This document shows positions 782 to 30,389 of a stretch of DNA of 64,000 nt, piece by piece; the first letter of the stretch is position 1, and every line of letters starts with the position of its first letter. The notes beneath the pieces are model-generated. The model saw only the letters and a list, made by a program, of their open reading frames with translations. It did not search any database and had not been told where the DNA came from. Source of the stretch: Lathyrus oleraceus (lineage: Eukaryota > Streptophyta > Magnoliopsida > Fabales > Fabaceae). Made by a program: the position numbers and the translations under genes. Location: positions 228,982,539 to 229,046,538 of the forward strand of contig NC_066581.1 of the NCBI RefSeq assembly GCF_024323335.1, in the 5' to 3' direction.

Positions 782-3700
782 ATGGATCAAGTACAAGCTG
801 AGTTAGCAGAGATGAGGGCTAACATGGCCCAGTTCATGCACATGATGCAAGGGGTTGCGCAAGGACAAGAAGAACTCCGAGCTCTAGTTCAGAGGCAAGA
901 AGCTGTAGTTCCGCCACCCAACCAAGCTCTGCCAGAGGGAGGCCCGATTAATGATAACCCTACTGCGGCTGTGCCCATCAACAACTATGCTGTAGGGGAG
1001 GAATTAAGAGGTATTCGAGTCAACGGTCAACCGATTGCTCCAGAGACCGCCAATGCCAGAGTAGTCCATACTCCGGCCCGTAATCAGGCTCCGTTGGTGG
1101 ACAGACAAGAGGATATCTTTACTATGCTCAGTGAAGACGAAGACGTCCTGGGAAGGGTTGATGAGAGAGATCGCAAAGTTGAGGCCCTTGCTGAGAAGAT
1201 CCGGGCTATGGAGTGTCAAAATTCTCTTGGTTTTGATGTAACTAATATGGGATTAGTGGAAGGTCTGAGAATCCCACATAAGTTCAAAGCACCCACTTTC
1301 GACAAATACAACGACACTTCTTGCCCTCGCACTCATGTGCAGGCATACTATCGAAAGATCTCGGCGTATACTGACGACGAGAAGATGTGGATGTATTTTT
1401 TCCAAGACAGCCTATCTGGGGCGTCTCTGGACTGGTACATGGAGTTGAAAAGAGATTCGATCAGATGCTGGAGGGATTTGGGAGAAGCGTTCCTCAGACA
1501 ATACAAACATAACATGGATATGGCACCGACCCGGACTCAGCTGCAGAGTTTGTGTTAGAAAAATAACGAGAGCTTTAAAGAGTACGCCCAGAGATAGCGC
1601 GAGCTTGCTGCGAGAGTTCAACCCCCTATGCTGGAAAGGGAGTTGACAGACATGTTCATCAGCACTCTTCAAGGTGTGTTTATGGACCGGATGGGAAGCT
1701 GCCCATTCAGTAGTTTTTCTGATGTCGTCATCTGTGGCGAGAGAACTGAAAGTCTGATTAAGGCCGGCAGAATTCATGATGTGGGTTCTTCTTCGTCATC
1801 GAAGAAACCCTTCTCTGGGGCACCTCGCCGTAGAGAAGGTGAAACCAATGATGTACAACACCGAGGGAGTGTGTACAGAGGAAGTGTGAATAGAGATCAA
1901 TATCGCCCGGTTGCTGCAGTGACCATTCCTGCACCTCAACCTCGTCAACAACAACAACAAAGGGTTCAACAACCGCAACAACAACAACAACAGCAACAGC
2001 GTCCGTATCAGCCCAGACAAAGGATAGCTGATCGACGTTTTGATCCATTGCCAATGTCGTACGCCGAACTATTGCCCGAACTACTCCGGTTAGGGTTTGT
2101 TGAGCTGCGTACAATGGCTCCACCAACAGTGTTGCCACCTGGATACGACGCCAACGTCCGTTGCGACTTTCACTCCGGGGCGCCAGGGCACCACACTGAA
2201 AAATGTCGGGCTTTCCAGCACAAAGTCCAAGATTTGATCGATTTCAAGGCGATCAATTTTTCTCCCGTGCCTAACGTCGTGAACAATCCTATGCCTCAGC
2301 ATGGAGGACATAGGGTGAATTGTGTTGAAGGGGCCGAAGCTGAAGATTTTGTTGTCAGAGTGGATGAGATTCAGACTCCTTTGTTGACTGTAAAGGGCCG
2401 TTTGTTGGGTGGTGGTGTCTACCCGGGCTGTGATGAAGACTGCTTGGGCTGTGTAGAAGCTGATAACGGTTGTGACCAGTTGAGGGCTGGTATTCAGAAG
2501 CTGATTGACGAGGGTTGTGTTCAGTTCAGTCGGGCTGTCAAAGATAATGGGTCGGTGTCAACTGTCACCATCTACTTTAAACCGGCTGAAGGACGAGGAC
2601 AAGGGGTTGTTAGTTCATCTGCAGCAAGTGGTACTCCAGTTACCATCTCCGCTCCGGTAACCATCAGTGCTCCCACTACTATCGCGGCGTCTGGAAGAAG
2701 ACTAGTTGAGAATAGTAGGGCTGTCCCTTGGAGGTATGATAACGCCTACCGCAGCAATCGAAGGGCTGATAATCAGATGAGGCCAACGAGTCAAGCGCCT
2801 GTGACGATCAGTGCACCAGTGAAAACTCATGTGGTTGTGAGTCCCGTTGTGGACAACGTTGGTGGACCAGGAGGTTTCACTCGGAGTGGACGACTGTTTG
2901 CTCCTCAGCCGTTGAGAGATGCCAATGCTGAGGCATCTGCTAGGGCGAAAGGCAAACAGGTTGTCGTTGACGAGGAACCAGCTCGGAAGGAGGTGCTTGA
3001 GGGTTCATTTGAAAAGGACGTAGAGGAATTCATGAAGATCATAAAGAAGAGTGACTACAAGATCGTAGATCAGCTCAACCAGACTCCGTCTAAAATTTCA
3101 ATTCTCTATTTACTGTTGTGCTCTGAGGCACATCGGGATGCTTTGTTGAAGATGTTGAACATGGCATACGTACCGCAAGAGATTTCCGTCAACCAACTAG
3201 AGGGAGTGTTGGCCAACGTGAGCACCAGGCATGGTGTAGGTTTCACTAACCTAGACTTGACGCCTGAGGGTCGCAATCATAACAAAGCCTTGCATATCAC
3301 TATGGAATGCAAAGGTGCAGTTTTGTCTCACGTGTTGGTAGACACCGGGTCGTCGTTGAATGTCCTACCAAAGCAGATTCTGAAGAAGATTGATGTTGAA
3401 GGAGTCGTGCTCACTCCCAGTGACCTTATTGTGCGCGCATTTGATGGATCCAAACGTTCTGTGTTTGGTGAAGTTACACTGCCGGTGAAGATAGGTCCAG
3501 AGATTTTCGACATCATTTTTTATGTTATGGACATTCAACCCGCCTACAGCTGTCTGTTGGGGCGTCCTTGGATTCATGCAGCAGGAGCAGTCTCGTCAAC
3601 TCTCCACCAAAAACTCAAGTATGTCTGGAACGACCAAATTATGACCGTGTGTGGCGAAGAAGAGATTCTGGTGAGTCACCTATCCTCGTTCAAGTATGTC

Positions 3701-4116
3701 GAGGTAGATGGCGAGATCCACGAAACGTTATGCCAGGCATTTGAGACCTTGGCTCTGGAGAAGGTAGCTTATGCTGATCAGAGGAAGTCGGGTGCTTCGA
3801 TTGCTTCATACAAGCAAGCCAAGGAGGTTGTGGACTCCGGCAGAGCTAAAGGCTGGGGCAAGATGGTAGACTTGCCGGTTAAGGAAGACAAGTTCGGTAT
3901 CAGATATGAGCCTCTCCAAGCAGAGCAGAGTGTACAGACGGGTCCGAGTATCTTTACCAGCGCCGGGCTGATGAATCATGGCGACGTCTTTGCAACTGGT
4001 AGCGAAGACTGTGATAGCGAATGCGATTTAGACATCTGGGTCCGGCCGTGTGCACCAGGGGAGTCTATCAATAATTAGACGGCTGAAGAAGTGGTTCAAG
4101 TTACTCTTCAGACAGA
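782..4116 (+). pseudogene. Ogre gag-pro, interrupted by three in-frame TAG codons
   Basis: One reading frame runs from the ATG at 782 to the splice donor at 4116/4117, broken by TAG at 1556-1558, 1595-1597 and 4076-4078. The gag core lies at about 1270-1660 (the FLRQYKHN and ERELTDMF blocks), followed by a Gln-rich stretch at about 1945-2000 and a zinc-binding-like CDFHSGAPGHHTEKC segment near 2160. The aspartic protease is near 3330-3580, with catalytic DTGSS at about 3341 and a LLGRPW block. Gag would form the particle and the protease would mature the polyprotein. The frame is otherwise intact and its conservation is high, so the stops look like recent point changes. Readthrough cannot be excluded for 4076, which lies close to the donor. 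Confidence 0.88.
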
Positions 4117-4369
4117 GTAATTTTCCTTTGTTTTTATCATTTTGCATGAAAACCCTACGTTCTGCCCAAGGCGTAGTGGTTCATTGTAGGGCCTCATCAT
4201 GTTTTAATGATTATCATAAATAAAGGATGTTTTGCAATCAAATTTTGTGATCCCTGTCTTTCTATTTTTTGTTTTCACTTTTTCTAAAAAAACAATAAAA
4301 ATGGCAATGTTTTTGTTTTTTGTGACTTTATTGAACTCTTTTTCTAAAACAAAACATTAAAACATGCAG
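4117..4369 (+). other. Ogre pro/RT intron (GT-AG, 253 nt)
   Basis: A GT donor at 4117 (GA|GTAATT) and an acceptor ending GCAG at 4369 flank a T/A-rich 253-nt stretch. Joining 4116 to 4370 keeps phase: the last two bases before the donor plus base 4370 make one codon, after which the frame runs into the ATG at 4380 and on into pol. Ogre elements are known to carry a partially spliced intron at this place, thought to control the Gag to Gag-Pol ratio. The exact sites are my inference from phase and consensus; another nearby donor is possible. Confidence 0.72.
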
Positions 4370-7300
4370 AAGTGACCTTATGGCATCCACTATGAACGAT
4401 CATGTTATGGCTCAGTATGATTTTGATAATCCCATCTACCAAGTCGAAGAGGAGAGTGAGGAAGACTGTGAACTCCCCGCAGAATTGGTCAGACTACTGA
4501 AGCAGGAGGAAAGGGTCATCCAACCTCATTAGGAGGAGTTGGAGATTGTTAATCTGGGTACTGAGGACGCCAGAAGAGAGATCAAGATTGGGGCTGCTTT
4601 AGAGGACTCTGTCAAGAGGAGGCTGATTGAGATGCTGAGAGAATATGTGGAGATATTCGCCTGGTCATATCAAGATATGCCTGGGTTGGATACAGACATT
4701 GTGGTGCATCGACTACCCCTCAGAGAAGAGTGTCCGTCGGTCAAGCAGAAGCTTCGCAGAACTAGTCCCGATATGGATGTCAAGATCAAGGAAGAAGTTC
4801 AGAAGCAATGGGATGCAGGTTTTCTGGCTGTTACCAGTTATCCACCGTGGGTAGCCAACATCGTTCCTGTGCCGAAGAAGGATGGCAAAGTCAGAATGTG
4901 TGTCGATTACCGGGATTTGAACAGAGCAAGTCCGAAAGATGATTTCCCATTACCTCACATCGATGTATTGGTGGATAATACGGCTCAATCCTCGGTATTC
5001 TCTTTCATGGACGGTTTCTCGGGCTATAATCAGATCAAGATGGCGCCAGAGGACATGGAAAAGACGACATTCATTACACCTTGGGGCACGTTCTGCTACA
5101 AAGTGATGCCATTTGGGTTGAAGAACGCCGGTGCTACCTATCAGAGGGCTATGACGACTCTCTTTCATGACATGATGCACAAAGAGATCGAAGTGTACGT
5201 GGATGATATGATTGCGAAGTCGCAGACAGAAGAAGAGCACCTGGTTAATTTGCAGAAGTTGTTTGACAGGTTGGTCAAGTTCAAACTGAGGCTGAATCCA
5301 AACAAGTGTACGTTTGGGGTGAGATCAGGGAAGCTGTTAGGCTTCATTGTCAGCGAAAAAGGGATTGAGGTTGATCCAGAAAAGGTCAAAGCTATTCAAG
5401 AGATGCCTGAACCGAAAACGGAAAAGCAAGTCCGCGGGTTTTTAGGGAGGTTGAACTACATTGCAAGGTTCATATCTCACCTAACTGCCACGTGTGAACC
5501 AATTTTCAAACTGCTCAGAAAGAATCAGGCGATCAAGTGGAATGATGATTGTCAGAAAGCTTTTGACAAGATCAAGGAGTATTTACAAAAACCTCCAATC
5601 CTGATTCCTCCAGTTCCAGGGAGACCATTGATAATGTACCTGTCAGTTACCGAGAACTCGATGGGGTGTGTATTGGGGCAGCATGACGAGTCTGGTCGAA
5701 AAGAGCATGCCATATACTACCTTAGCAAAAAGTTTACCGACTGTGAAACAAGATATTCACTGCTCGAGAAAACTTGCTGTGCTTTGGCCTGGGCTGCTCG
5801 CCGACTAAGGCAGTATATGTTGAACCATACTACCTTGTTGATTTCTAAGATGGATCCAGTAAAGTACATCTTTGAGAAGCCGGCTCTCACCGGGCGCGTT
5901 GCTCGATGGCAGATGATTTTAACAGAATATGACATTCAGTACACGTCGCAGAAGGCCATCAAAGGTAGTATTCTGTCAGATTACCTTGTCGAGCAACCAA
6001 TTGATGACTATCAGCCTATGATGTTTGAATTCCCTGATGAAGACATCATGTATCTGAAGATGAAAGATTGTGAAGAGCCACCTGTCGAGGAAGGACCGGA
6101 TCCTGATGACAAGTGGACACTGATGTTTGATGGGGCTGTGAATATGAACGGTAACGGTGTTGGGGCAGTGCTCATTAATCCCAAAGGTGCTCATATCCCT
6201 TTTTCTGCCAGATTGACGTTTGACGTCACCAACAATGAAGCTGAGTATGAGGCTTGTATCATGGGGATAGAAGAAGCTATCGACCTGAGAATCAAAACTC
6301 TTGACATATTTGGAGATTCAGCTCTAGTGATCAATCAGGTCAATGGAGATTGGAATACGAACCAGCCGCATTTGATTCCGTATAGAGATTACACCAGAAG
6401 AATACTGACGTTCTTCAAGAAGGTGAAGTTGTATCATGTCCCCCGGGATGAGAATCAGATGGCTGATGCCTTGGCTACTTTATCTTCCATGATAAAAGTT
6501 CATTGGTGGAATCATGTGCCACATGTTGCGGTGAATCGACTCGAGAGGCCTGCGTATGTGTTTGCAGCCGAGTCTGTTGCGATTAATGAGAAGCCGTGGT
6601 ACTATGATATCAAGAACTTCCTCAAGACTCAAGAGTATCCTGAAGGTGCGTCAAAGAACGATAAGAAGACCCTGAGAAGGCTAGCTGGAAGCTTTTACTT
6701 GAATCAGGATGATGTGTTGTACAAGAGGAACTTTGACATGGTCTTGCTCAGATGCATGGATAGACACGAAGCAGACATGTTGATGCAAGAAGTGCACGAG
6801 GGTTCGTTTGGTACCCACGCTGGTGGTCATGCAATGTCAAAGAAATTGTTGAGAGCCGGTTATTACTGGATGACTATGGAATCCGATTGCTTCAAGTATG
6901 CTCGGAAGTGCCATAAATGCCAGATTTATGCTGATAAGGTGCATGTACCACCAAGCCCGTTGAATGTCATGAACTCGCCTTGGCCGTTTGCCATGTGGGG
7001 CATTGACATGATTGGGAAGATTGAGCCAACTGCTTCGAATGGACATCGCTTCATCCTGGTTGTGATTGATTACTTCACCAAGTGGGTGGAAGCAGCTTCC
7101 TATACTAACGTTACCAAACAAGTGGTTGCCCGGTTCATCAAGAAGGAAATCATCTGTCGTTATGGAGTTCCTGAAAGAATCATCACTGATAATGGTTCAA
7201 ATCTCAACAACAAGATGATGAAGGAACTTTGTAGAGATTTCAAGATTGAACATCACAATTCTTCTCCTTACAGACCGAAGATGAATGGTGCTGTAGAGGC

Positions 7301-7847
7301 GGCAAATAAGAATATCAAGAAGATTGTGCAGAAGATGGTCGTGACGTACAAGGATTGGCATGAGATGCTGCCTTTCGCTTTGCATGGGTACCGTACCTCA
7401 GTGCGTACATCGACCGGGGCAACCCCGTACTCCCTGGTGTATGGTATGGAGGCAGTCCTACCTGTTGAAGTGGAGATCCCTTCTCTGAGGGTTTTATTGG
7501 ATGTCAAGCTGGACGAGGCCGAGTGGATTCGAACAAGGTTTAATGAGTTGAGCCTTATCAAAGAGAGACGGTTAGCAGCTGTGTGCCATGGGCAGTTATA
7601 TCAGAGAAGGATGAAGCGAGCCTTTGATCAGAAAGTGCGTCCTCGGACATTTCAGACTGGCGATCTAGTTCTGAAAAGGGTCCTTCCTCCCGGTACAGAT
7701 AACAGGGGCAAGTGGACTCCTAATTATGAAGGTTCATATGTTGTGAAGAAGGTCTTCTCCGGTGGAGCCTTGATGCTTACAACAATGGATGGTGAAGATT
7801 TTCCGTCCCCTGTTAACTCAGATGTAGTAAAAAAATACTTCGCATAA
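4370..7847 (+). pseudogene. Ogre pol: RT, RNase H, archaeal-type RNase H, integrase
   Basis: The frame continues from the splice acceptor through an acidic linker, meets one TAG at 4530-4532, then stays open from 4533 to the stop at 7845-7847. Counting residues from 4539: reverse transcriptase about 85-265 with the YVDD catalytic box at 220-223; a degenerate first RNase H about 360-440; a second, archaeal-type RNase H about 520-655 with FDGA near 530, NNEAEYEA and GDS motifs; integrase zinc domain about 740-800 (H, H and CHKC); and a D-D-E core with GIDM near 823, TDNGS near 883 and Glu 920. The dual RNase H is typical of the Tat clade. Only the single TAG breaks it, so the enzyme region is nearly complete. 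Confidence 0.92.
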
Positions 7848-16269: not shown

Positions 16270-17520
16270 ATGGCATCTTCATCACAATTCAAAATCAAAG
16301 CTCACGTCAATGGTGAGACTTATGAATGTGATATGTCTAGCTTCCTATTTAGAAACACCGAATGCACTCGTTTTTGTCTAAATAGAGGAGCTGACTTCTC
16401 TTATCTGAAAAGGAAGATTGAGTCCAAACTAAGACAACCCGTGTCCCAAATTTTTTATCAACAACCTTTTTTTTCAAAAAATAACTCTGTCAAGTTTTAT
16501 AAGTCATTGATTCAAAATGACATGGAGACACAATACATGTTTTGTAACCATGAGTATTCTGGTTACGAATACATAGTGTTGTACATTGTGTTGGAACAAT
16601 TTCAACAAGCTCAGAATATTCAGTCACAGGTTATTGATCCTGTGATTGATGACGAACAAGATGTTGAGCACCACGTTGAAGACGATGTGGTTGATGATGC
16701 AGAAGACGTGGTTGATGACTTGGTGAACCGTGATTCTGAAGACGAAGACCAAGTTCAAATACCTATAGTGCAACGCTACTCACCGCCTGCGCACTTCACA
16801 ACCCTTAACTTGGGCGAGGATGAGCCCTCATCAGATATGTTCTACAACCCATATATGAGGTCTGATGAGGAGTTAAAGAAGGGTGGCCAATTTCGGACCA
16901 AGGAAGAGTGTCTGTTAGCAATAAAGAACTGGCACTTGAAAAACTGTGTTGACTACGATGTTATCAAATCAAATCCGGAAAGATACGTTATTGTATGCAA
17001 AAATCCAGAGTGTGGATATAGGTTGATGGCATCGTACAAGAAGAAACATAATGCGTGGGTGATAGGGTCCATTTCTCAAGCTCACACTTGCGTCAACACC
17101 AACATGGCACAGGATCATCGCAAACTTAGCCATGATATGATCTGCCATTCCATATTACCTCTAGTTGAGGCTGACCCGTCACTGAAGGTCAAAACTATTA
17201 TCTCCCATTGTGTGGCTGTTTTCAAATATACACCGTCATACAGAAAGGCTTGGTTAGCGAAAACCAAGGCAATTGAACTAGTATACGGTAATTGGGAGGA
17301 ATCATACAAACAACTTCCGCGCTACCTGGCTGCACTACGATTGTATTCACCTGGGACGGTTTCTATAATTGAGACCTTGCCGGCACAATCCTCTGATGGA
17401 ACTCGTCTAGAAGGTAATGGAATATTCCATAGAATTTTCTGGGCATTCCGTCCCTGCATCATCGGTTTCACATTCTACAAACCACTTGTTCAAGTCGATG
17501 GAACTTGGCTGTATGGGAAA
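16270..17520 (+). pseudogene. MULE-1 MURA-type transposase, N-terminal half
   Basis: 417 codons are open from the ATG to the break at 17520. It aligns throughout with the MULE-2 transposase: an N-terminal PB1-like/ubiquitin-like fold (about residues 1-115), an acidic linker rich in Asp and Glu (about 120-165), a MuDR-type DNA-binding domain (about 195-280, GGQFRTKEECLLAIKNWH and a C-x4-C pair), and the start of the MULE transposase core. It stops right after the first catalytic Asp (VDGTWLYGK). The continuing frame to 17565 encodes retrotransposon sequence, not transposase. Together with 19541-20468 it is one gene broken by an insertion with a local deletion. Confidence 0.92.
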
Positions 17521-17607
17521 CTTGAGAGTAAGATGAAGGAGTCTTACCCAGAGTTGTTCGCTTGAGGTATGTTTTCGAGGACGAAAACTCTTTTAGTGGG
17601 GGAGAGT

Positions 17608-19540
17608 TGTAACACCCCGATAATAATAAAATAATTATTTAAATTGAGTTAATAATTTATTTATTAATTTAATTAAATAATTGGAAATTTTATTATTATT
17701 ATTGGATTATTATTATTATTATTATTTGGAAAATATATAAGTTGGAAATAAGAGAAAAGAGTTCATTTTGGAAAATAAGGTTTTACATGAAAAGCAGAAA
17801 GCGATCGTGAAAGAGGAAAAGGGCAAGAGGAAGAAGGTTGAAGAAGAGAAGAGCTTGGAGCTTGAGATTCGCCGGATTAATCAGGTAAGGGGGGTTTATC
17901 TCGATTAATGGGTATTATGGGAGAATATGTGATGGGTAGTGATAAGCCGTTAATTTGACCCTAATTGGGATTGTTGATGCTGAAGAATAATGTTGGATGA
18001 ATTGTGGTTAGACTGTAATTGAATCTGTGTTTGGGTTAGTTGTGAAATTCCGAACGTATAGCTTTTTACGGGATCGGAATCGGAGGTCCGGAAGTCCTCC
18101 AACGGCGGAAAATGCGGAGAATTCTGCGTTCTGCCTTGTGTTAGCGCAGGGACTGCTGTTTGGTCTGCGTTAACCGGTTAACCCAGGGTGTTAACCGGTT
18201 AACACTGTTATGATTTGTGAAAATGTACTGTTCTGCCTGCGTTAACCGGTTAACCCAGGGCGTTAACCGGTTAACACTGTTACGTTTTGCCAAAAAAATA
18301 TGTTTTTGCCTGCGTTAACCGGTTAACCCAGGGCGTTAACCGGTTAACACTGTTGCAGAGTGGAAAAATTAGCTTTTTAATGTTGTGTACATAACTGAGA
18401 GTTAGCCTATGTTGGCGTATGATGTAATAGGGATTATATCCCGCTGTTTTGAGCAGTATAGGTATTAGTAGAGTGTGCTAATACTGTGATTAATTATTTG
18501 ACATGACATAATGTTTTGATACATATGTTGAGGAATGTATGATTGTATGCATAATGCTATGAATGTATCAGTTGTGTATGCATTTGTGAATAGACTGTTT
18601 TATGGCTTAGAGTGTGAGCATATGTCTATTCTTGAATTGTTGTGGATATTGCATTGCTAGGTGATTAGCATGCATATTGTGGCCTTTATGGTGGTAGCTA
18701 ATTCCCGTGGTGAGGAATTAGTGATGTTAGTCATTTTGGACTGTTGTTGGTGTTTGCATGCTAGGTGAGTTAGCGTGCATAGCATGGCCCTTGGGGTGGT
18801 AGCTAATTCCCATAGTGAGGAATTAGTGATGTGAGTCACTAGGTCTCAAATGAGTGGGACTAGTGAGCTTGGTAGTCGTACCTGGATTGGTCGGTGAAGT
18901 TGAACTATATGTTCAAGAATAGTCGGTACCGCATGTGTGGAGTCTCATTGCATAATGCATGTATGGCATATAATATGAATGGATGTATTCCAATATTATA
19001 CGTGTGTTTGTGTTGTTATGGAGTATGATTTGAGATTATACTTGTGCTTTATGTTGGTGTTGAGTATGATGTTGAGCTGATGTGCTGTTACTGATTGTAT
19101 GTTGCGATTAGGGTGATTAATGTGTTAAATTACTTAACATGACATTATATTCTATAATGCTTATTATATTGATTGAGAAACTCACCCTTACAACTATTTT
19201 TCAGGTAACGAGAAATGAGTTGAGTAGAAGCGAATGCTTGGAGTCTAGTGTAGTCTCCTTAGTGGGTCGTGCTCTGATAGATGTAACATCGGGATGGGAT
19301 GTTTTATGTTGTTGAATGATTTACATATGAATGTTACATGTTTTACATGATTGAGGAGATCTCTATCCGCTGCGTTTTATGCAAATGTTTATGTTTTGAA
19401 TTAATAAAAGAGCATGACCGTTATATTGTTGAATGGTGTGAATATTATGTGTGACACCCTTGAATGGCATAATTACTCTGAGTTGTTATATGTTTATTAT
19501 TTTTAATTAAATATTTGGGGTATTTTAGAAGGGTGTTACA
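17608..19540 (+). repeat. Chromovirus 3' LTR (1.93 kb)
   Basis: Begins TGTAACACCCCG and ends GAAGGGTGTTACA, so the two ends are a 10-nt inverted repeat (TGTAACACCC/GGGTGTTACA). Transposase coding sequence resumes at the next base. It contains a 72-73 nt tandem array at 18165-18356 and two copies of a GGTAGCTAATTCCC(G/A) block near 18690 and 18800. No gene is seen. Confidence 0.92.
18165..18356. repeat. 72-73-nt tandem repeat with paired GTTAACCGGTTAAC palindromes
   Basis: Three units, at 18169, 18241 and 18314, each carry two copies of the perfect 14-nt palindrome GTTAACCGGTTAAC separated by CCAGGG(T/C)(G), six copies in all. They lie inside the chromovirus LTR. Confidence 0.95.
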
Positions 19541-20468
19541 TGACCCCCCGTCTACGCATGTCTACTGCATCAGGCATATTGCTCAAAATTTTGTGCGGGA
19601 GTTCAAAGATGATTTCTTGAAGCAAAATTTGATAAACGCGGGGTATGCATTAAACCAACCTAGATTCCAATACTACCGCCGGGAAATAATGTTGGCAAAT
19701 TCTGATGCAGGGAGGTGGATCGATAATATCGATAGAGCGAAGTGGACTAGATCATACGACGATGGGGTGAGGTGGGGCCACATGACAACAAATCTTGTGG
19801 AATCAATGAATGGCGTCTTTAAGGGCATACGTAACCTCCCGGTAACCGCTTTGGTGAGTGTGACCTATTTTCGCATGGCAACATTGTTCGTAACAAGAGG
19901 AAAGCGCTGGCATGAAGTGTTACAGACGAGTCAAGTATATAGTGATGCCTGCATAAAGTTTATGAGGCAGGAATCTGCCAAAGCCAACAGCCATCGGGTT
20001 ACGGAATTCGACCGCCATGGCCACACTTTTAGTGTCAAGGAAACAATTGACCACAACCAGGGGCTGCCCAGACAAGAGTATAGGGTCCTAATACCAGACC
20101 GTTGGTGCGACTGTGGTCAATTTCAGGCCTATCGAATGCCTTGTTCTCATGTCATTGCAGCATGTTCACACAGCCACTTCGATGCATTGTCGCTAGTGTC
20201 TCCCATCTACAAAGTTGCAACATTGCTAAATGTATACGACAATCCCTTTCCGGTGGTAGCATTGGAGGCATATTGGCCAGAGTATGATGGGGAAATTGTT
20301 TGGCACAACGAATCGATGCGGCGGAATAAAAGTGGTCGCCCAAATAGCAGGCGCATTAGAACTGAAATGGACGTCGCAGAAAAAATGCAGAGGAAGTGTA
20401 GCATATGTAGACAACTAGGGCATAATAAGAACAAATGTCCATATCGTGGATCTAGTTCCACAACTTAG
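19541..20468 (+). pseudogene. MULE-1 MURA-type transposase, C-terminal half
   Basis: Coding resumes with the DPPSTHVYCIRHIAQNF block that in MULE-2 follows the second catalytic Asp. It runs through the NLVESMNGVFKG region (likely catalytic Glu), a SWIM zinc finger (WCDCGQFQAYRMPCSH, about 20104-20165) and a terminal C2HC zinc knuckle (CSICRQLGHNKNKC). The stop is at 20466-20468. Compared with MULE-2, about 72 residues including the second Asp of the D-D-E triad are absent at the junction, so the MULE-1 transposase cannot be restored by splicing out the insertion. No frameshift is seen within this half. Confidence 0.92.
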
Positions 20469-20690: not shown

Positions 20691-21044
20691 CTAAGAAATT
20701 ACAACAGTTAACACTATGTCGTCTGATCCATGCATCATTTGGATGCAATCAATGTCGCTTTCAACTTCAACCCACCAACGTATCGTTTCTCTAGTTTCAA
20801 ATGAGAACCTTGTTCTAAGCCTCTGAATCCTTCTGATGACTTCACCAGGTTGGTAATCTCCCTCTAACCAAGACATCAAGGACCTTTTTAGTTGGTCCAA
20901 CGAACGAATGTTCCAAAATTTCATCTCCATTGGGGGTTTCAAAGGCGAGAAAATAACATGCCCATCCCTTTTTAAGATTACTGGTTCAGGATCCGGGCGC
21001 CTTGATGATGTTCGCTGCCATGACGACGGTCTTGGGGATGCCAT
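20691..21044 (-). CDS. MULE-associated small protein (117 residues), MULE-1 copy
   Basis: Start chosen at the ATG whose first base is 21044, because a TATAAATA box lies about 66 nt upstream and a longer frame to 21107 would begin almost at that box. The protein has a basic, Pro-rich N-terminus and a conserved core: FWNI, LDQLKR, a W-L-E-G segment, a GE-IR-I-RL segment, and a DDI...VVIS C-terminus. The MULE-2 protein at 29241-29510 shares these blocks at the same relative place, ending in the same VVIS. It converges on the transposase gene with a 222-nt gap. I do not recognise a family. The position matches mudrB of maize MuDR, but I see no sequence likeness to it. Confidence 0.62.
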   Translation of the reverse strand: MASPRPSSWQRTSSRRPDPEPVILKRDGHVIFSPLKPPMEMKFWNIRSLDQLKRSLMSWLEGDYQPGEVIRRIQRLRTRFSFETRETIRWWVEVESDIDCIQMMHGSDDIVLTVVIS

Positions 21045-21117: not shown

Positions 21118-21650
21118 GGAAAAGATCTTGGTTGTACACCAATCTACTTAACCCTAATTAGTGTCGCACTTGATTAATTAGTCTTATGGGGAATTAGGGT
21201 TTGAATTAGGTCATAACTACCAAACTCTAATTATATCCGATCAATAAACCCTAATTATAATTGATTAATTAACCTTAACATGATTAACCCTAATTCTCCA
21301 TAAAATTTATAAATAATATTAATTACTTATAAATTAAATTAATATATTTATAAATTTATATATATTGTAAATAATTTTATTTATATATATGTATTAACAT
21401 AAATTAATATAATTTATAATAAATATAAATTAATAAATTAAAAAAAAATTAAAACATATTAAAAAAAAAAAAATTGAGTGTAGGCGCCACTCCTAGTGGC
21501 GACTTGCCCTACCCCTTAAGGGTAGACGCCAACTAGGGTGGCGCCCACGTACAAAAATAGGGCAAAAAATGCCTATTTTTGTAATTTTTTTGAAAAATTG
21601 TGTATTTTTGGAAATTTTTTAAAAAAACTGGATATTTAAAAAAAAAATCG
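21118..21650. repeat. Right terminal region of MULE-1
   Basis: AT-rich DNA followed by a GC-rich set of inverted repeats at about 21480-21550 (GTAGGCGCCACTCCTAGTGGCG and relatives), then a T/A-rich end. The GGCGCCA...TGGCG style and the distal GAAAA(T)TG...GGAAATTT order correspond to the right TIR of MULE-2. The left partner is outside the window, so the terminus at 21650 and a 9-bp duplication TGTAATGTT (21651-21659) are predictions. Confidence 0.55.
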
Positions 21651-22070: not shown

Positions 22071-22079
22071 TTATAATGG
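22071..22079. other. Left 9-bp target-site duplication of MULE-2
   Basis: TTATAATGG, identical to 30381-30389. Nine base pairs is the standard duplication length for Mutator-like elements. Confidence 0.9.
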
Positions 22080-22645
22080 GGCAAATTTACCGACATAACC
22101 CACATTTTCGAAGAAATTCCCAAAATAACCCAGTTTTCAAAAAAATTCCCAATATACCCCACTTTTAGAGGGAGGCGCCAATTGGATTGGCGCCCCCTCT
22201 TAAAAATTACACACAGGCGCCAATTGGATTGGCTAGGGCAGGTGCCCTAGCCAATCCAATTGGCGCCTGTGTGTAATTTTTAAGAGGGGGCGCCAATCCA
22301 ATTGGCGCCTCCCTTAAAAAAGCCTCAAATGAAAAAACTTCCAACATGAAAGTTATAGATCTTTTCAAGACAATGAATTTAGATATAAATTTTGCAACAT
22401 TTGGAATTTTTTTGAGAAAGTTATGGGCAGTTGAAGTTGGACTTCTGAGTTTTTCAACTGTTATCTGACCGATAATGTTTTGTATTATTGCATGTGTTTA
22501 TTTTAGGAATATGAATTTTTGTCCAACATAACATTTGAACTAGACATCTTAAATTTTCCAATGCACTTGGTCCCACCTCAAAATAATAAAAAATGAGTGA
22601 GTTAGGTCCCTGCGAACTTGACCCAAAATTAGGGTTTTTGTCAAA
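22080..22645. repeat. Left TIR of MULE-2
   Basis: Matches the reverse complement of 29817-30380 with few differences: the AACCCACATTTTCGAAG block, the GGCGCC palindrome cluster, then a GCCTCAAATGAAAAAAC...TTTTGTCAAAA segment. It includes the 144-nt palindrome at 22170-22313. The long inverted partner fits the long-TIR class of MULEs. Confidence 0.93.
22170..22313. repeat. Perfect 144-nt palindrome (71-bp arms, 2-nt centre) in the left TIR
   Basis: The left arm, beginning GGGAGGCGCCAATTGG and ending GGCTAGGGCA, is followed by GG and the exact reverse complement of the whole arm. Each arm holds GGCGCCAATTGG modules. The right TIR carries the corresponding block near 30149-30292 with several mismatches in one arm. 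Confidence 0.93.
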
Positions 22646-23090
22646 ACAAGTGTATGTGAATTTTGCCAAAAGGGACCAACTTCAAGCCCTTTATTTTGAA
22701 TGATAAAAGCCTCAAATGACAAAACCTTCAACATAAAAGTTGTAGATCTTTTCAAGATAATGAATTTGGACTAAAGTTTTGCATCATTTGCAAATTTTAT
22801 GAGTTAGGTATGGGCACCTGAAGTTGGACTCTTTGACATTTTATCTGTTATCTGACCTATAATGTTTTGTATTATTGCATGTGTTTGTGTTAGAGTTATG
22901 AATTTTTGTCCAACATAAGAAGTGAAGTAGACACCTTAAAGTTTCCAATGCACTTGGTCCCACCTCAATATAATTAAAAATGAGTGAGGTAGGTCCTTGC
23001 GAACTTGACCCAAAATTAGGGTTTCTGTCAAAATATGTGTATGTGAATTTTGCCAAAAGGGACCAAATTCAAGCCCTTCAACATAACAAT
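22320..23090. repeat. Tandem duplication of about 390 nt next to the left TIR
   Basis: The segment starting AAGCCTCAAATGA(A) at about 22320 recurs at about 22707 with roughly 85-90% likeness, including TTGTATTATTGCATGTGTTT and CACTTGGTCCCACCTCA. A third, shorter piece follows to about 23170. The first copy is part of the TIR; the second extends it inward on the left side only. This is the 3' flank of the PMD gene. Confidence 0.85.
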
Positions 23091-23252
23091 AACAAGTCCT
23101 TGAATTAGGGTTTCTGACCTATAAATTTTTGTATTATGATATGTGTTTATTTTAGAATTATGAAAGAAACCTAATGTTTGGAGTTTACACAAAGATAAAT
23201 TTGACATAATACGAATTGATATTAATAAAATTTGGATTTTACACAAAGAATC

Positions 23253-25456
23253 CTAATGGTGATGACCGGGATCACCTAACCGACCTCCGGTCCCACATCC
23301 CCTAGCTACCCTAACCCTTGGCCCTAACCCACGTTGACGATTCTGCACCGGTGTTTGTTCATCTGATGGTCCAGGAGCGTCATTACCTCCTACAGGAGAA
23401 GATCCGTTGAGGTATTCAGCCAACTCAGCATAGTCTTCAGTATTCAATGATGGTGTACCGGCGTAGCTGAGCTCATGACCCATGCCAGAGAAGTTGGGGT
23501 GTGGTTGACTCATGGATGGGCGACCGGGACGGTTGAAGGGGGACATGGGTGACAATGATGGGTCTAGGAAAGGTTGGAAAGGTTGTTGGGGTGTTTGGAA
23601 GAGATATGGTTGTGGGATGTTTTGGTATTGTGATGTTTGGGGTTCTTGGCTACGGTAGGTGATGGGGTGGTTAGTGTTTTGGGTAAGGCGACTTTGGTAG
23701 GGTGATGGTGTGGGTGCGAAGCGATGTTCGGTCGAAGGTTGATGGTCCATTTGTTGGTGGTGGTATGGGGGATGTTCTTGGTTTTGGGGTTGGGTGAATG
23801 GCATGTTTTGGTTGTATGTTTGTGTGTTTGTGGAACGGAAAGTTTGTCGGATAGGTGGTTGTGAGTAACCGGGTTGAGAATGTTGTTGGGGGTTAGATGT
23901 TGATCCTTCTTGTGTGTAACTTGTCTGGCGTGGGTCGTAGAGGTACATATCATCGGCGATGAATTGAAATCCAACTGATCTATACCAAGCCATATAAGTA
24001 CGACTTGGTTTTACCTCATTTGGCATGACTGCGTCAGTTAAGACATGGTCATGACGGTGCTTCCACTTGCGACACTCTGATCTTGCGAAGGTTTGCCAAG
24101 GGTTGTAGTTCCATTGGTCGTTCACTTTACGCATATGCCATTCTCCTAGGCTAGCTGGGGGATCTGGGATATTCTGGACCATACCAAACTGCAGCTTCAC
24201 ACGGTCGGTGTTGTGCAGCTCCACTGTTGTGAACCGTATTATCGGTGTGCATGTTGTCCATACGGCTGCGTCTTCAGGGTTGATCTGATGCTCATGATCC
24301 ATATTAAGGTATGGACGCCAAATGAACTGAAATGTTAAAGACGATAGGATTTTAATGAATGTAGAAAAAGTCAACATAATATGAAGAAATAATGAAATTA
24401 TTTTGCTTACGTCTGCCGGTCGAAGGTGATCCAACAGGTTGCGATATTGAGTAATACAATGTCTCGGACATCTGCTGTAATTCATACCGCGTGCCGACCA
24501 TCTACACCAAAAAGTTAAAATAAATTAGTTATGGGTAATAAACTGTAAGGAAGGAAGTAAAGATATAGCAATTTAAACAACTTACTTTTTTGCATATGGA
24601 AAAGTGAAGGGGTTGCTATTGACCGGTGCTAGAGACGGTAGTCTTGACCATCCCCATGCTTGTAGCAAAACAGCACATCCAGAAAATGTAGAAGTATCTT
24701 TGTGGGAGTTTTTGCACAAAGAACTATAGAGATAGGCTAGACATGCGGATCCCCAACTATAACTACCTATTCTATCTATATGTCTAAGTAAAGGTAAGTA
24801 CATAATATGCATGCTAGAACCACTACCTTCGGGAAATAAAAAGGATCCTAGTAACAACATAATGTAACACCTAGTTTTGATGATTCGAGCCTCTTCGGTA
24901 GAATGCTCATCTAAATAAAAACTATTATAATATGACTTTAGGCGTGAAAGTAGTATACCTTGTCCCCTAGCATTATCATCTAACAAATCAGTGTTTAAAA
25001 GCTCCATGCAAATTGAATTTGCATAGTTGGTCTTACCATTAACAGCTTTGCCTTCAATTCGTAGTCCTAAAAGTATGTAGACGTCTTCTAACGTCACGGT
25101 ACACTCACCGGTTGGAAACCAAAATGTGTGTGTCTCTGGCCTCCATCTTTCGCATAAGGCTAGAATGAACTTGTTATCTATAGACCAAGACATAATTTTG
25201 CTAAGGTGACCAAAACCGGCGAGTTCAACATAAGGTTGAATCATCGGGTCCATTGGGACAAATTCGTGGACTCGAGTTCGAAACCTTGAGACCTCCTATA
25301 ATAGAAATAATGTAACACTTGACTAAGTCGGTATTTAAAAATAAAATGGGGTTGGTGGAGATGAAACATAAAAAAGAAGTATAAGAAAAAACTTACGTAT
25401 GTCGCGATGTTTGCAACTGTTCCTCTGTGTGCTTCGCCCATTGTGAGTAAAGACAT
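23253..25456 (-). CDS. Plant mobile domain (PMD, MAIN/MAIL1-like) protein, four exons
   Basis: Model on the minus strand: exons 25397-25456, 24586-25295, 24411-24501 and 23253-24326, with introns of 101, 84 and 84 nt, all GT-AG and all phase-consistent, giving about 644 residues. PMD signature (residues about 20-330): a conserved HEFVPMDPMI start, a W-FPTGECTVTLEDV-LLGL block, then YSWGSACLAYLY and RPADFIWRPY segments. The last exon ends in a Pro/Gln/His-rich tail and a Gly/Arg-rich C-terminus. PMD proteins of Arabidopsis act in transposon silencing and genome stability; mobile copies are known in plant transposons. Intron 3 (84 nt) has no stop and is a multiple of three, so retention would add 28 residues. 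Transcribed divergently from the transposase. Confidence 0.85.
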
Positions 25457-25584
25457 ATTGTTGGGGAGTTGGTGTAGATGAAAATGGAAGATTTTGTTGA
25501 AGATGAAATTGTAAAAGAAGTAGTGAGAAATGTAGATGAAGTAGTGAGAATGTTGGTGTGGAAGAATTGTTGAAGGAGTGGATC

Positions 25585-25592
25585 AATTTATA
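25585..25592 (-). promoter_or_regulatory. TATA box of the PMD gene
   Basis: TATAAATT on the minus strand, about 130 nt before the ATG at 25456. The spacer is a repeated leader of GAAAATGGAAG/GTAGTGAGAA-like units. Confidence 0.55.
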
Positions 25593-25673
25593 GGCAAATG
25601 GAGGAGTGCATGAAAAATTGTGTTTGTATGGTGTCTCCACCTCATTTGGCGACCATGTGCAATATTAAAGTGG

Positions 25674-25790
25674 GGGCGCCATTCAAATTGGCGACACCCT
25701 AGGGCACATTCGAGGACTGACTCCATGGGGGCGCCATTCAAATTGGCGACCATGTACAAGCCTTAAAGGTAGGCGCCAAACCAATTGGCG
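25674..25790. repeat. GGCGCCA-type inverted motifs in the PMD promoter
   Basis: Three motifs, near 25675, 25731 and 25770, have the form GGCGCCA(N)TTGGCG. They are short relatives of the TIR palindromes, and lie just upstream of the PMD TATA box. Similar motifs occur at 29605-29710, upstream of the third gene. Confidence 0.75.
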
Positions 25791-25869
25791 CCACCTTCTG
25801 CATGTCTGACAAGTGGCATTGTTGTCTCCTGCATGCTGAACAAATGACTTATGGATGGCTTGCATGATT

Positions 25870-26410
25870 GACACATCATCTCTGACCATCTTAGGTGTCC
25901 GACACGTGTCTGTCTTGTCTCCTGCATGCTGATGACTAGCTTCTTGATGGCTTGCATGATTGACACATCATCTCTGACCATCTTAGGTGTCCGACACGTG
26001 TCTGTCTTGTCTCCTGCATGTTGATGACTAGCTTCTTGATACCTTGCCTGGTTGACACATCATCTCTGACCATCTTAGGTGTCCGACACGTGTCTGTCTT
26101 GTCTCCTGCATGCTGATGACTAGCTTCTTGATACCTTGCCTGGTTGACACATCAACTCACACTGTCTTGCAGGATTGACACGTCATCTCTGACACGTGGC
26201 TCTCTAGTATCCTGCATGCTGAATACTCACTTCTGTCTTGCATGACAGACACATCAACTCTTGACTAGCAAGCATGCTTGACACATCAACTCACACTGTC
26301 TTGCATGACAGACACATCAAGTCTTGACTAGCTAGCATGCTTGACACATCAACTCACACTGTCTTGCATGACAGACACCTCATCTCAGAAATTACTTGCA
26401 TGCTTGACAA
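25870..26410 (+). repeat. Tandem repeats between PMD and transposase genes (92-nt units, then about 60-nt units)
   Basis: Units beginning GACACATCATCTCTGACC recur at 25870, 25962 and 26054, with a partial copy at 26146, a period of exactly 92. Each carries GTCCGACACGTGTCTG, which centres on the G-box CACGTG. From about 26220 to 26400 a related shorter unit (GACACATCAACTCACACTG and CTTGCATGACAGACAC) repeats three times. Open frames in this block (25683-25981, minus) follow the period and are not genes. Confidence 0.9.
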
Positions 26411-26449
26411 GGTATCTCAGACTAGCTTCAATGTGAGACACTGATACCA

Positions 26450-26459
26450 TCTATTTAAG
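26450..26459 (+). promoter_or_regulatory. Possible TATA element of the MULE-2 transposase
   Basis: CTATTTAAGT lies about 170 nt before the ATG at 26628, in the same relation to the upstream repeats as the clear TATA box of MULE-1. The leader between holds repeated CTTTTCATCT/CACTCACATTCATC units. The match to the consensus is weak. Confidence 0.4.
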
Positions 26460-26627
26460 TGTCTTACTATCACATTCATCTGCACTTGCAAAATACTTTT
26501 CATCTCCAAAATACTTTTCATCTTCACTCACATTCATCTTCACTCACATTAATACTTATCATCTGCAAAATACTTTTCATCTTCACTCACATTCATCTGC
26601 ACTTGCAAAATAGTTTTCATCTCCAAA

Positions 26628-29066
26628 ATGTCATCTTCATCATTATACAGTATCAACGTTCACTGCAACGGTGAAACTTTTGAGTCTGAGCTTCATGGTT
26701 TTTGTTTTAGAAACACTGATACCATTAGAGTCACGATGAAGAGAAATGCAACCTTTTTGCATTTCAAAAAAAGAATACAATCCTTTATAGCATTAGGTAT
26801 TGTGTCAAAGATGACATATCAGAATCCTATATTTTTTGAGAATGGTCAATGCAAGTTTTTCCCCCTAAAGATACGAGACGATGAAGATGTTGAAAGCATG
26901 TTTCTTAGTCATGAACATTCAGGCATGGATTGTATCGAGTTGTACATTACTCTACAACCATGTATACCGTCTCAACAGTCTCAACTAACAGATCAGGATC
27001 CAGCTGGTGGAGATGCTGCAGATGATGCACAATGGTCAGATGAACTCAACCCAGAAGCAGAAGTAGAGGTCAATGTTGTTGATGAAGAAGAAGAGGAGAC
27101 TGAGATACAGGTTGATCACATCCTGAATAACGACGATGAAGATGAGGCTCAACAACCACCAATACCTCCTACTCATGCCTATATTCCTCCTCAACATATG
27201 ACAAATATGGATCTTCACGACGATGAAATGTCCGACAGTGTCTTCTATAATCCGTATCCGAGACCAGTAGGCGAATTAAAGGTTGGAGACATGTTTCGTA
27301 CCAAAGAGGAATGTGTCTTGGCAATCAAAAAATACCACATGAACAACTTTGCTGACTTTACGGTGAAACGCACTGATTCTAGAAGGTATGTTATCGAATG
27401 TCGTAACATGCTTTGTAAGTTTCGTTTGGCTGCATCTTACAAGAAGAAAAATGACTCTTGGGAGATCGCTTCAATAGACCCACCACACAGTTGCGTCGCA
27501 ACAACCGTTCAACAAGATCACCGTAAACTGAGCACAACTTTGATATGTCGAGACATTCTGCCATTGGTAAATAAAGACCCATCTGTGAAGGTGAGTATAA
27601 TTATATCCCATATCCGAACAACATATAATTATACTCCATCTTACAAGAAAGCATGGATTGCGAGGACAAAGGCTGTTGAGCAGGTTTTCGGCAACTGGGA
27701 GGACTCATTCAAGGAATTACCACGGTTTTTATGGGCACTAAAAACTTATGTCCCAGGAACTGTGGCAATTCTGGAGACAGTGCCAGCAATGATGCCAGAC
27801 GGAACCTGTGCTACAGGTAATAGAATATTTCACCGTCTCTTTTGGGCATTTGACCCGTGCATCAAAGGTTTCGCTTTCTGCAAACCTCTCCTGCAAATTG
27901 ATGGCACTTGGTTATACGGAAAATACAAGGGTACGTTGCTCATGGCAGTTGCACAAGACGGTAACAACAATGTATTTCCCATTGCCTTTGCTCTTGTTAA
28001 AGGTGAAACGGCTGCTGGATGGGGTTTCTTTCTTCGACATCTCAGAATGCATGTCGCTCCACAAGCCAATCTATGTCTGATTTCTGATAGACATGCTGCC
28101 ATCGAAAGTGCCTACAACAACCATGACAACGGATGGCATGATCCTCCTTCTACACATGTCTACTGTATCAGACACATTGCACAAAACTTCATGCGTGCTA
28201 TAAAAGATAAGAATCTTCGCAAGAAGGTGGTGAATGCTGGGTATGCTTTAACTCAACCGTCTTTTCAATATTATCGTGATGAGTTTCGACTGTCTAATGA
28301 AGACGCGGGGAGATGGATAAATAACATCCCAGTAGAGCAGTGGACAAGAGCATTTGACGGTGGTTGTCGATGGGGCCACATGACAACAAACATTGTGGAA
28401 TGCATGAACGGGGTTTTCAAAGGAATTCGAAACCTGCCCATAACCGCCTTGGTAAGATCAACCTATTATAGGTTGGCTTCTATGTTCGCAAGCAGAGGTG
28501 AAAGATGGAGTGCAGTGTTAATGTCCGGACAAGTATTCAGTGAATGTTGCATGAAGGTCATGAAAGAGGAGAGCATCAAAGCTACGACACACGCTGTAAC
28601 AGTGTTTGACCGTCATAGACAAAATTTCAGCGTCCAAGAAACAATGGGCAACAGCGAGGGGAGACCAAATTTAGCCTACGCGGTTAAACTACACAGGAGT
28701 TGGTGCGATTGTGGAAAATTTCAGGCCTTCCGCATACCTTGCTCCCATGTCATTGCAGCATGCGCTTATACTCGTCAAGACGCTTACACCCATTTATCTG
28801 ATGTGTACAAGGCCAACACCATCATGAATGTATATAGTAAAAGCTTTTCAGTACTACCAATGGAGGATTACTGGCCTCCATATGAAGGAGATATTGTTTG
28901 GCACAATGAAGAGATGCGTAGAAAGAAGAAAGGAAGGCCAAACAGCACACGTATAAGAACAGAGATGGATTCCACAGATAAAATGATAAGATTATGTAGT
29001 ATCTGTCGTCAACCAGGACACAACAAAAACAACTGTCCCAATCAAGGAGCATCATCTAGATCTTAA
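26628..29066 (+). CDS. MURA-type MULE transposase, intact, 812 residues
   Basis: Single open frame with stop TAA. Domains: N-terminal PB1-like/ubiquitin-like fold (about 1-110); acidic linker (about 120-175); MuDR DNA-binding domain (about 215-300, VGDMFRTKEECVLAIKKYH and paired Cys); MULE transposase core with first catalytic Asp at 425 (IDGTWLYGK), second at 487 (ISDRHAA) and a candidate Glu near 591 (NIVECMNGVFKG); SWIM zinc finger about 691-712 (WCDCGKF...CSH); and a C2HC zinc knuckle at 790-804 (CSICRQPGHNKNNC). The enzyme would bind the TIRs and move the element by cut and paste with 9-bp duplications, which are present. All visible catalytic and zinc residues are intact, so it may be functional. 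It is about 55-60% alike to the MULE-1 copy by eye. Confidence 0.95.
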   Translation: MSSSSLYSINVHCNGETFESELHGFCFRNTDTIRVTMKRNATFLHFKKRIQSFIALGIVSKMTYQNPIFFENGQCKFFPLKIRDDEDVESMFLSHEHSGMDCIELYITLQPCIPSQQSQLTDQDPAGGDAADDAQWSDELNPEAEVEVNVVDEEEEETEIQVDHILNNDDEDEAQQPPIPPTHAYIPPQHMTNMDLHDDEMSDSVFYNPYPRPVGELKVGDMFRTKEECVLAIKKYHMNNFADFTVKRTDSRRYVIECRNMLCKFRLAASYKKKNDSWEIASIDPPHSCVATTVQQDHRKLSTTLICRDILPLVNKDPSVKVSIIISHIRTTYNYTPSYKKAWIARTKAVEQVFGNWEDSFKELPRFLWALKTYVPGTVAILETVPAMMPDGTCATGNRIFHRLFWAFDPCIKGFAFCKPLLQIDGTWLYGKYKGTLLMAVAQDGNNNVFPIAFALVKGETAAGWGFFLRHLRMHVAPQANLCLISDRHAAIESAYNNHDNGWHDPPSTHVYCIRHIAQNFMRAIKDKNLRKKVVNAGYALTQPSFQYYRDEFRLSNEDAGRWINNIPVEQWTRAFDGGCRWGHMTTNIVECMNGVFKGIRNLPITALVRSTYYRLASMFASRGERWSAVLMSGQVFSECCMKVMKEESIKATTHAVTVFDRHRQNFSVQETMGNSEGRPNLAYAVKLHRSWCDCGKFQAFRIPCSHVIAACAYTRQDAYTHLSDVYKANTIMNVYSKSFSVLPMEDYWPPYEGDIVWHNEEMRRKKKGRPNSTRIRTEMDSTDKMIRLCSICRQPGHNKNNCPNQGASSRS

Positions 29067-29150
29067 GCTTATTGTAACATGATATCTAGATCTTAACCTA
29101 TTTGTAACATTGTATCTAGATCTTATGCTTTCTATAACATTGTATTTCTG
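29054..29150 (+). repeat. Three 30-nt repeats at the end of the transposase gene
   Basis: ATCTAGATCTTA(A) followed by TTGTAACAT(T)G(T)AT repeats three times; the first copy overlaps the last codons and the stop. It lies between the two convergent genes and may form their 3' ends. Confidence 0.85.
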
Positions 29151-29240
29151 TAACAATCAATCATTATATATCATTAAGTTCTTGTTACAACGAGTTTCAT
29201 AACCAACATCAGTACAAAACATCTGAAAACATAAATAATT

Positions 29241-29510
29241 CTAACTGATTACAACAATCAAATTAATATCGTCTCGACCGAACATCATTTCCCTAGCATC
29301 CTTATCAGTCTTCATTCGCACCCAACCAAAGATACTGTCAAGTCTCTCAATACTTCTGATTTTTTCCCCTTCTGGTATTTTCCCGTCTAACCATCGAACC
29401 AGCTCCCTCTTCAGTTGATCTAACGTGGTGATGTTCCAAAACAGCATCAGCAATTGAGGTTTGTCTCTCGCATAAATCACCTTACCGTATCGGCGACGAA
29501 CACCAAACAT
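29241..29510 (-). CDS. MULE-associated small protein (about 89 residues), MULE-2 copy
   Basis: The start is taken at the ATG near 29510 that begins MFGVRRRYGK; the frame is open further, to about 29543, but without another ATG. A TATAAATA box about 55 nt upstream supports it. The core FWNI-TTLDQLKREL, WLDG, GEKIRSIERL, W-VRM-TD and DDIN-VVIS aligns with the MULE-1 protein at 20691-21044. The gap to the convergent transposase stop is 174 nt. There is no signal peptide, membrane segment or zinc motif. Conservation between two diverged elements argues for selection. Function unknown; it could assist transposition, as proposed for MURB in maize, by position only. Confidence 0.62.
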   Translation of the reverse strand: MFGVRRRYGKVIYARDKPQLLMLFWNITTLDQLKRELVRWLDGKIPEGEKIRSIERLDSIFGWVRMKTDKDAREMMFGRDDINLIVVIS

Positions 29511-29561
29511 GATAGCCAAATGATTATATGAATTGTGGAACAATAGGTCACACTACGCATC

Positions 29562-29569
29562 TATTTATA
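29562..29569 (-). promoter_or_regulatory. TATA box of the MULE-2 small gene
   Basis: TATAAATA on the minus strand, about 55 nt before the ATG near 29510, parallel to the box in MULE-1. The GGCGCC palindrome cluster at 29605-29710 lies directly upstream. Confidence 0.6.
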
Positions 29570-29816
29570 AGACAAAAAGGCATTTTATGAGGGACTCGGC
29601 AATTGAGTTGGCGCCTCCTTTTAAAACATACACATAGGCGCCAATTGGATTGGCTAGGGCACCTACGCTAGGCTAGGGCACCTGCCCTAGCCAATCCAAT
29701 TGGCGCCTCCATTCAACTTTTAACAACAGCCGCCATATGAACAACTTTCATGTTCATCAAAAATCCATTTGAAACTTGGAAGCTCATCATTAATTTCAAA
29801 ACATTATAGGTCATTT

Positions 29817-30380
29817 TGACAGAAACCCTAATTTTGGGTCAAGTACGCAGGGACCTAACTCAATCATTTTTAATTATTTTGAGGTGGGACCAAGTGCATT
29901 GGAAAATTTAAGATGTCTAGTTCAAATGTTATGTTGGACAAAAATTCATATTCCTAAAAGAAACACATGCAATAATACAAAACATTATCGGTCTGATAAT
30001 AGTTGAAAAACTCAGAAGTCCAACTTCAACTGCCCATAACTTTCTCAAAAAAAATCCAAATATTGCAAAATTTATATCCAAATTCATTGTCTTGAAAAGA
30101 TCTACAACTTTCATGTTGGAAGTTTTTTCATTTGAGGCTTTTTTAAGGGAGGCGCCAATTGGATTGGCGCCCCCTCTTAAAAATTACACACAGGCGCCAA
30201 TTGGATTGGCTAGGGCAGGTGCCCTAGCCAATCCAATTGGCGCCTCCTTGCAATTTTTAAGAGGGGGCGTCAATCCAATTGGCGCCTCCCTCTAAAAGTG
30301 GGGTATATTGGGAATTCTTTTGAAAACTGGGTTATTTTGGAAATTTCTTCGAAAATGTGGGTTAATTAGGTAAAAAATCC
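29817..30380. repeat. Right TIR of MULE-2
   Basis: Inverse partner of 22080-22645. The inner part (29817-30145) matches the CACTTGGTCCCACCTC...GCCTCAAATG segment; the outer part carries the GGCGCC palindromes and the GTGGGGTATATTGGGAATTC...TTCGAAAATGTGGGTT end. One half of the palindrome cluster differs from the left TIR (CTCCTTGCAA in place of CTGTGTGTAA). An additional smaller palindrome set lies inward at 29605-29710. Confidence 0.92.
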
Positions 30381-30389
30381 TTATAATGG
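30381..30389. other. Right 9-bp target-site duplication of MULE-2
   Basis: TTATAATGG, identical to the left copy at 22071-22079. Confidence 0.9.

Follow-up and report, generated by a model that had tools for sequence, protein, structure and literature searches.

What do two additional genes do for a transposon that encodes its own transposase? The question is raised by a Mutator-like element (MULE) at 22080-30380 of a 64,000-nucleotide stretch of pea DNA (Lathyrus oleraceus, contig NC_066581.1 of assembly GCF_024323335.1, positions 228,982,539 to 229,046,538 of the forward strand; hereafter the window), which bears, beside the transposase gene MURA, a gene for a PMD protein and a small third gene. 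We found that MURA and the small gene form a convergent pair in two families of such elements, that a complete copy exists which has this pair and lacks PMD, and that a PB1 fold is predicted both for the small protein and for the N-terminus of MURA. The explanation that we prefer, and to which we give an even chance of being right, is that of a high-copy MULE whose small protein would pair with MURA through their PB1 folds and steer transposase assembly, with PMD as an anti-silencing accessory.

A complete element in many copies

The element is with certainty a complete MULE, and its structure is of the MUDR type. Both flanks carry the target-site duplication TTATAATGG, which occurs twice on the forward strand of the 64 kb, at 22071-22079 and 30381-30389, directly abutting the element's ends, so that the identical 9-bp duplications reported in an initial annotation of the window are exact to the base. 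The terminal inverted repeats (TIRs), put there at about 565 bp, lie at 22080-22646 (+) and 29814-30380 (-) and are alike at 95.9% over 561 bp ungapped, the match beginning 6-7 bp inside the ends; their divergence was not taken as a clock, because a DNA transposon can insert with TIRs that already differ. Palindromes based on GGCGCCAATTGG occur in both TIRs (22163-22320, with 78-nt arms, and 30140-30297), and a related inner palindrome lies inside the right end (29583-29735). Looser palindromes of this type stand before PMD (25671-25800) and at the end of a relic element upstream (21483-21545), and 19 of the window's 25 GGCGCCA/TGGCGCC words fall within the element. Part of the left TIR region is repeated in tandem (22705-23078, +; 87.7% to 22318-22691), an arrangement already described in MULEs (PMC3310237).

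PMD (-) and MURA (+) are divergent, and the small gene is convergent with MURA. The 812-codon transposase frame (26628-29066, +) has no internal stop, and its Pfam matches (MULE, 1e-17; DBD_Tnp_Mut, 1.2e-7; SWIM, 4.8e-6) supply the DBD, the MULE DDE core, and the SWIM domain of a MULE transposase. Both zinc motifs proposed earlier are present, the SWIM domain as a Pfam match and the CCHC knuckle (CX2CX4HX4C) with a score under the Pfam cut-off, and the three catalytic candidates, D425, D487, and E591, are conserved in 113, 100, and 100 of 120 listed homologues (the best 120 of 194), with gaps in 4, 13, and 18. Scans of viral contigs with the small-protein pair and with the MURA alignment, and of genome contigs with MURA and with its alignment, gave 184, 14, 17, and 164 raw pattern stretches, respectively, among which no relative was confirmed.

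The PMD gene is likewise spliced as first described, in four exons with GT-AG introns on the minus strand: exon 1 with the start codon (25397-25456), exon 2 with the N-terminal part of the PMD domain (24586-25295), exon 3 (24411-24501), and exon 4 with the C-terminal part of the domain and a Q/P-rich tail (23253-24326). Its 644-aa product matches PF10536 over the full length of the family (1-347 of 347, 1.6e-77). Two pea database models agree piecewise with the start codon (P0151) and the splice joints (P0150 and P0151), and two Lathyrus oleraceus / Pisum sativum proteins are 97-99% identical to the product over 74% and 44% of its length. In a tree from a set holding no Arabidopsis reference, the protein clustered with Fabeae proteins, some of which are named MAIN-LIKE 2-like, and P0150, which is of that type, has 124 members in its cluster. 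Pea proteins so labelled and with many members are likely transposon genes of the present family, separate from host MAIN.

Copies were sought in the 3.8-Gb pea genome with the small protein as query. All 150 matches scored, from 9,377 candidates, are full length and without stops, and 126 of them, the window's own included, are 100% identical. Twenty further copies were fetched from these matches, and 12 of them have both ends, with long TIRs and an exact 9-10-bp duplication, the search for which allowed each end to be displaced by up to 3 bases. The element is thus present in multiple copies at different sites, and since the joined flanks of six copies and of the window all differ, these are separate insertions. 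Of the 20 fetched copies, 18 retain at least half of PMD exon 4, 15 at least half of exon 2, and 18 at least half of MURA; the small gene is present in all 20, by choice of the copies, and stops or frameshifts are borne by many.

Selection was gauged by the ratio of nonsynonymous to synonymous differences (pN/pS) against the window copy, which all comparisons share, so that they are not independent. Pooled over the copies covering half or more of each gene, pN/pS was 0.32 for MURA (18 copies), 0.32 for PMD exon 2 (15 copies), and 0.44 for PMD exon 4 (18 copies). When the most diverged copy (L026) was left out, these became 0.32, 0.42, and 0.46, in the same order, and without both this copy and the closest ones they were 0.28, 0.34, and 0.43. 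MURA and PMD are accordingly constrained among copies.

The convergent pair of MURA and the small gene

The small convergent gene of the initial annotation proved to be an 89-aa frame on the complement of 29241-29510, its stop codon beginning 175 bp beyond the end of MURA; with it, the element stands as described, a single complete MULE of three genes that occurs in many copies. AlphaFold models gave a PB1 fold for the small protein (pLDDT 89.5) and for the MURA N-terminus (pLDDT 92.3; residues 1-108, 26628-26951, +). On the predicted model alone, the small protein has the PB1/ubiquitin-like beta-grasp fold; it and the related proteins P0001, P0005, and P0008 matched no Pfam family up to E 10, and we therefore term it a PB1-fold protein rather than a member of Pfam PB1. 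Both the gene and the predicted fold have good support; the function is what we infer below.

A second family showed the same arrangement. A relic of a related MULE, whose left part is lost, lies directly upstream of the main element (16270 to about 21655). It comprises a 5' part of MURA that is 52% identical to the main-element MURA (16270-17522, +), a 3' part after an insertion that is 62% identical (19539-20468, +), and a small PB1-type gene, 51% identical and again convergent with MURA (20691-21044, -). The insert in the relic MURA (17608-19540) starts with TGTAACACCC and ends with GGGTGTTACA, and by eye resembles a long terminal repeat preceded by some retrotransposon sequence. A genome search for this second family (query P0009) showed it to be large as well and scored 150 of 7,326 candidates, none of them with internal stops. 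In 12 of 12 returned loci, the 3' end of MURA is convergent with the small gene, and the MURA of this family is 52-62% identical to that of the main element. Over all pairs of these loci and the relic, pN/pS was 0.28 for the small gene and 0.22 for the 3' part of MURA; the loci rank highest in a search with a protein of about 60% identity, so that the selection bias is milder here. Between the families, the small gene also appeared constrained (pN/pS 0.48, with synonymous sites saturated), and the value of 0.03 within the first family is biased because its copies were picked by the small gene.

Four loci of the second family were extended. F2c is complete at 4.7 kb, with TIRs and the duplication ATTTTATAG; its MURA frame is broken at least once, its small gene is open, and PMD is absent. 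F2d has the duplication CCCACTAAA, a PMD 47% identical to that of the main element, a MURA truncated at the 5' end, and a small gene that is likewise open; in this locus (L044 joined to L036, at about 6760) the PMD coding sequence abuts that of MURA, an apparent internal deletion. In F2a, a MURA with a broken frame accompanies the small gene, and PMD was not found in the 5.8 kb upstream; F2b retains only the 3' end of MURA and the small gene. Since the small gene stands with MURA where PMD is missing, MURA and a stand-alone PB1 protein look like the core pair of these elements, with PMD as optional cargo.

The initial annotation made no mention of the left tandem TIR copy, the upstream relic, or the arrays between PMD and MURA described below. 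Elsewhere in the window, 710-7847 holds long gag/pol-like open frames of a retrotransposon, judged by eye only.

What the small protein and PMD may do

Because the same predicted PB1 fold is found on both proteins, the small protein and MURA would likely bind each other. Such binding would steer transposase assembly and so regulate transposition, and PMD, present in most though not all examined copies, would act as an accessory against host silencing, perhaps at the arrays between PMD and MURA. PMD may, as the initial annotation proposed, interfere with host silencing or imitate it, and a function for it is favoured by its constraint across copies and by a weak match of some PMD proteins to DUF1985, a domain of VANC, which acts against silencing. 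One type of PB1 domain typically has an acidic motif, OPCA. A motif of this kind is suggested in MURA: of the 59 listed homologues spanning the region, 54 have at least two acidic residues at positions 84-88; we do not use it as proof.

Several observations weigh against this explanation. Foldseek with the small protein returned nothing at E<=0.001 (best 4.3e-3), and a profile comparison between the small protein and the MURA N-terminus was not significant (probability 0.8%, E 0.066), the strongest sequence hint between the two being one Trifolium MURA (E 0.007, 268 sequences). Opposite charge within the PB1 pair (pI 9.9 versus 6.2) is limited to the present element; both members of the second-family pair are basic (9.0 and 8.7), and the homologue P0008 is neutral (6.8). 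A frameshifted tail is shared by 8 of the 28 database homologues of the small protein. Among the closest 5-6 copies, pN/pS was 0.77 for MURA, 5.9 for PMD exon 2, and 0.95 for PMD exon 4, which is no constraint, as would be the pattern of young dead copies. Finally, the copies of both families were found via the small gene, so that the frequency of MURA without it cannot be read from them, and the first-family copies cannot demonstrate constraint on it.

Profile comparisons of the small protein with the DBD region of MURA, a control, and with the N-terminus of grass PMD gave no match, and a PDB sequence search with the small-protein pair gave none below E 0.087. The shared frameshifted tail (P0016-P0019, P0021-P0024) sits just after an A-run and is either subfamily decay or sequencing error.

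The strongest rival, which we rate somewhat below the explanation just weighed and which is partly compatible with it, makes PMD the functional heart of the element and the small gene a minor part. PMD would act like VANC of the VANDAL elements, binding motif arrays in the intergenic region and unsilencing related copies, and its constraint across copies agrees with such a role. VANC carries DUF1985 and targets tandem arrays, also upstream of VANA (PMC5735166). Between the divergent PMD and MURA lie a 92-bp tandem repeat array holding ACACGTGTC motifs (25822-26158) and a 63/32-bp array (26225-26387). In the window and the 15 fetched copies that have both gene starts (five without a start were left out), this region spans 624 to 2012 bp and holds 0-12 counts of ACACGTGTC and 1-22 of GACACATCA, one site counting twice where palindromic copies overlap; neither motif was found elsewhere in the stretches of the 16 elements, outer 600 bases aside. 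The upstream array of the relic also holds ACACGTGTC. Over all k-mers, the sharing between the upstream regions of the two MURA genes falls within the shuffle range, and the 9-mer ACACGTGTC stands out with counts of 6 and 5 against a naive expectation of 0.08 shared repeated 9-mers, although it was chosen after looking and three window sites are counted twice through palindrome overlap. It is not constant: it is absent from F2a, F2d, and L026 and has two counts in F2c. It also contains CACGTG, a common promoter element.

DUF1985 was matched at E<=0.01 by 13 of 46 PMD proteins scanned (from 120 listed homologues, 181 found), the best at 1.3e-5 and all under the gathering cut-off, and in the seven whose coordinates were compared (P0158, P0166, and P0267 are among the matching proteins) it overlaps the PMD match, hinting that the two domains may be related. 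The window PMD itself matched PF10536 and, below cut-off, DUF7745; it did not match DUF1985, and the DUF1985 and DUF287 that VANC carries in VANDAL elements were not found in it. The complete copy without PMD (F2c) also speaks against a central role. We take the arrays and the DUF1985 match as a lead toward a possible VANC-like role, not as a demonstration. A PMD-DUF1985 link was not found among the matches listed from the literature searched; if true, it would tie a widespread cargo to a MULE protein shown to undo silencing.

A wider scheme seems to us doubtful. In it, the N-terminal PB1 fold of MURA would be an old and general feature of MUDR-type transposases, the small protein the legume counterpart of maize MURB, and PMD a relative of VANC, with PB1 contacts tying transposase, regulator, and anti-silencing factor into a self-assembling kit. 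Some PMD proteins (P0222, P0262, and others from grasses; P0263 from Senna tora) have at their N-terminus a homologue of the MURA N-terminal domain, and the scheme adds, just as tentatively, that the grass PMD N-terminus carries the same kind of PB1-like domain.

It is less probable still that the small protein is a brake that would cover the PB1 face of MURA, block assembly, and limit copy number. Aux/IAA proteins act so on ARF factors, which supplies the analogy, but a gene kept intact in at least 150 places despite the wide spread of the element is not what selection would obviously favour in a brake.

We had already come to disfavour, as improbable, the view that the element picked up PMD from the host as cargo without function and that the small gene arose by duplication of the MURA N-terminus and then decayed. 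PMD is missing from some copies, many copies have stops or frameshifts, and the closest lack constraint, as this view would have it; against it stand the pN/pS values of the more distant copies (0.34 for PMD exon 2 and 0.43 for exon 4), the 0.28 of the small gene within the second family, and the occurrence of PMD in that family too, at 47% identity. That PMD and MURA derive from two adjacent separate elements, or that no other copy shares TIRs and PMD, as the initial annotation had allowed, can practically be dismissed, no support having been found and the fetched copies refuting it (18 of 20 with half or more of PMD exon 4, 18 with MURA, and 12 with both ends and duplications in common).

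Comparison with known elements and PB1 proteins

The emphasis first laid on PMD needs shifting. PMD-bearing MULEs are indeed known (PMC6446971, PMC5418596), and PMD cargo is of a known kind: PMD occurs, mostly in antisense, in several plant MULE clades (Dupeyron 2019, PMC6446971), and its capture by MULEs had already led to speculation about anti-silencing (Ikeda 2017, PMC5418596). The new part is the small PB1-fold gene; a stand-alone PB1 gene in MULEs was not found among the matches listed from the open-access literature searched, and none is described for the clades in the excerpt of PMC6446971. The present element resembles the MUDR, MUDRAVI2, and MDR clades in its 9-bp duplications, TIRs, MURA with SWIM/CCHC, and antisense PMD, and the clade MULE-Solanaceae_1, with an 'unknown ORF and PMD', in its gene set; its TIRs, at about 565 bp, exceed the range of 30-447 bp given for the plant clades there (PMC6446971). 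With VANDAL21/Hiun (VANA, VANB, VANC) it shares the plan of a three-gene MULE with variable tandem arrays by the transposase gene and, through some PMD proteins, the weak match to the DUF1985 of VANC; it differs in its long TIRs and in its PB1 gene, of which the excerpt on VANDAL makes no mention (PMC5735166).

The two genes of MuDR are convergent in layout. Maize MuDR (mudrA and mudrB, PMC6446971) is like F2c, compared by gene plan alone, in having a transposase and a second small gene. PB1 pairing would turn the long-standing question of what the second gene does in MuDR-type elements into a direct question of binding.

The small protein and MURA 1-108 have the same predicted fold as the PB1 domains of PKC-iota/Par6, NBR1, and p62 in the PDB, unlike which the small protein has no match to the Pfam PB1 family. 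In the MUSTANG MUGB genes, a 5' exon supplies the PB1 domain of a protein derived from a MULE transposase; these are domesticated host genes whose PB1 was regarded as acquired (PMC3435246), whereas the present MURA is mobile and its PB1 fold predicted. A review describes the MUGB PB1 domain as usually without transposon association (PMC8616336). The prediction of such a fold for the front of a MURA from a mobile element raises the prospect that this PB1 domain may be ancestral.

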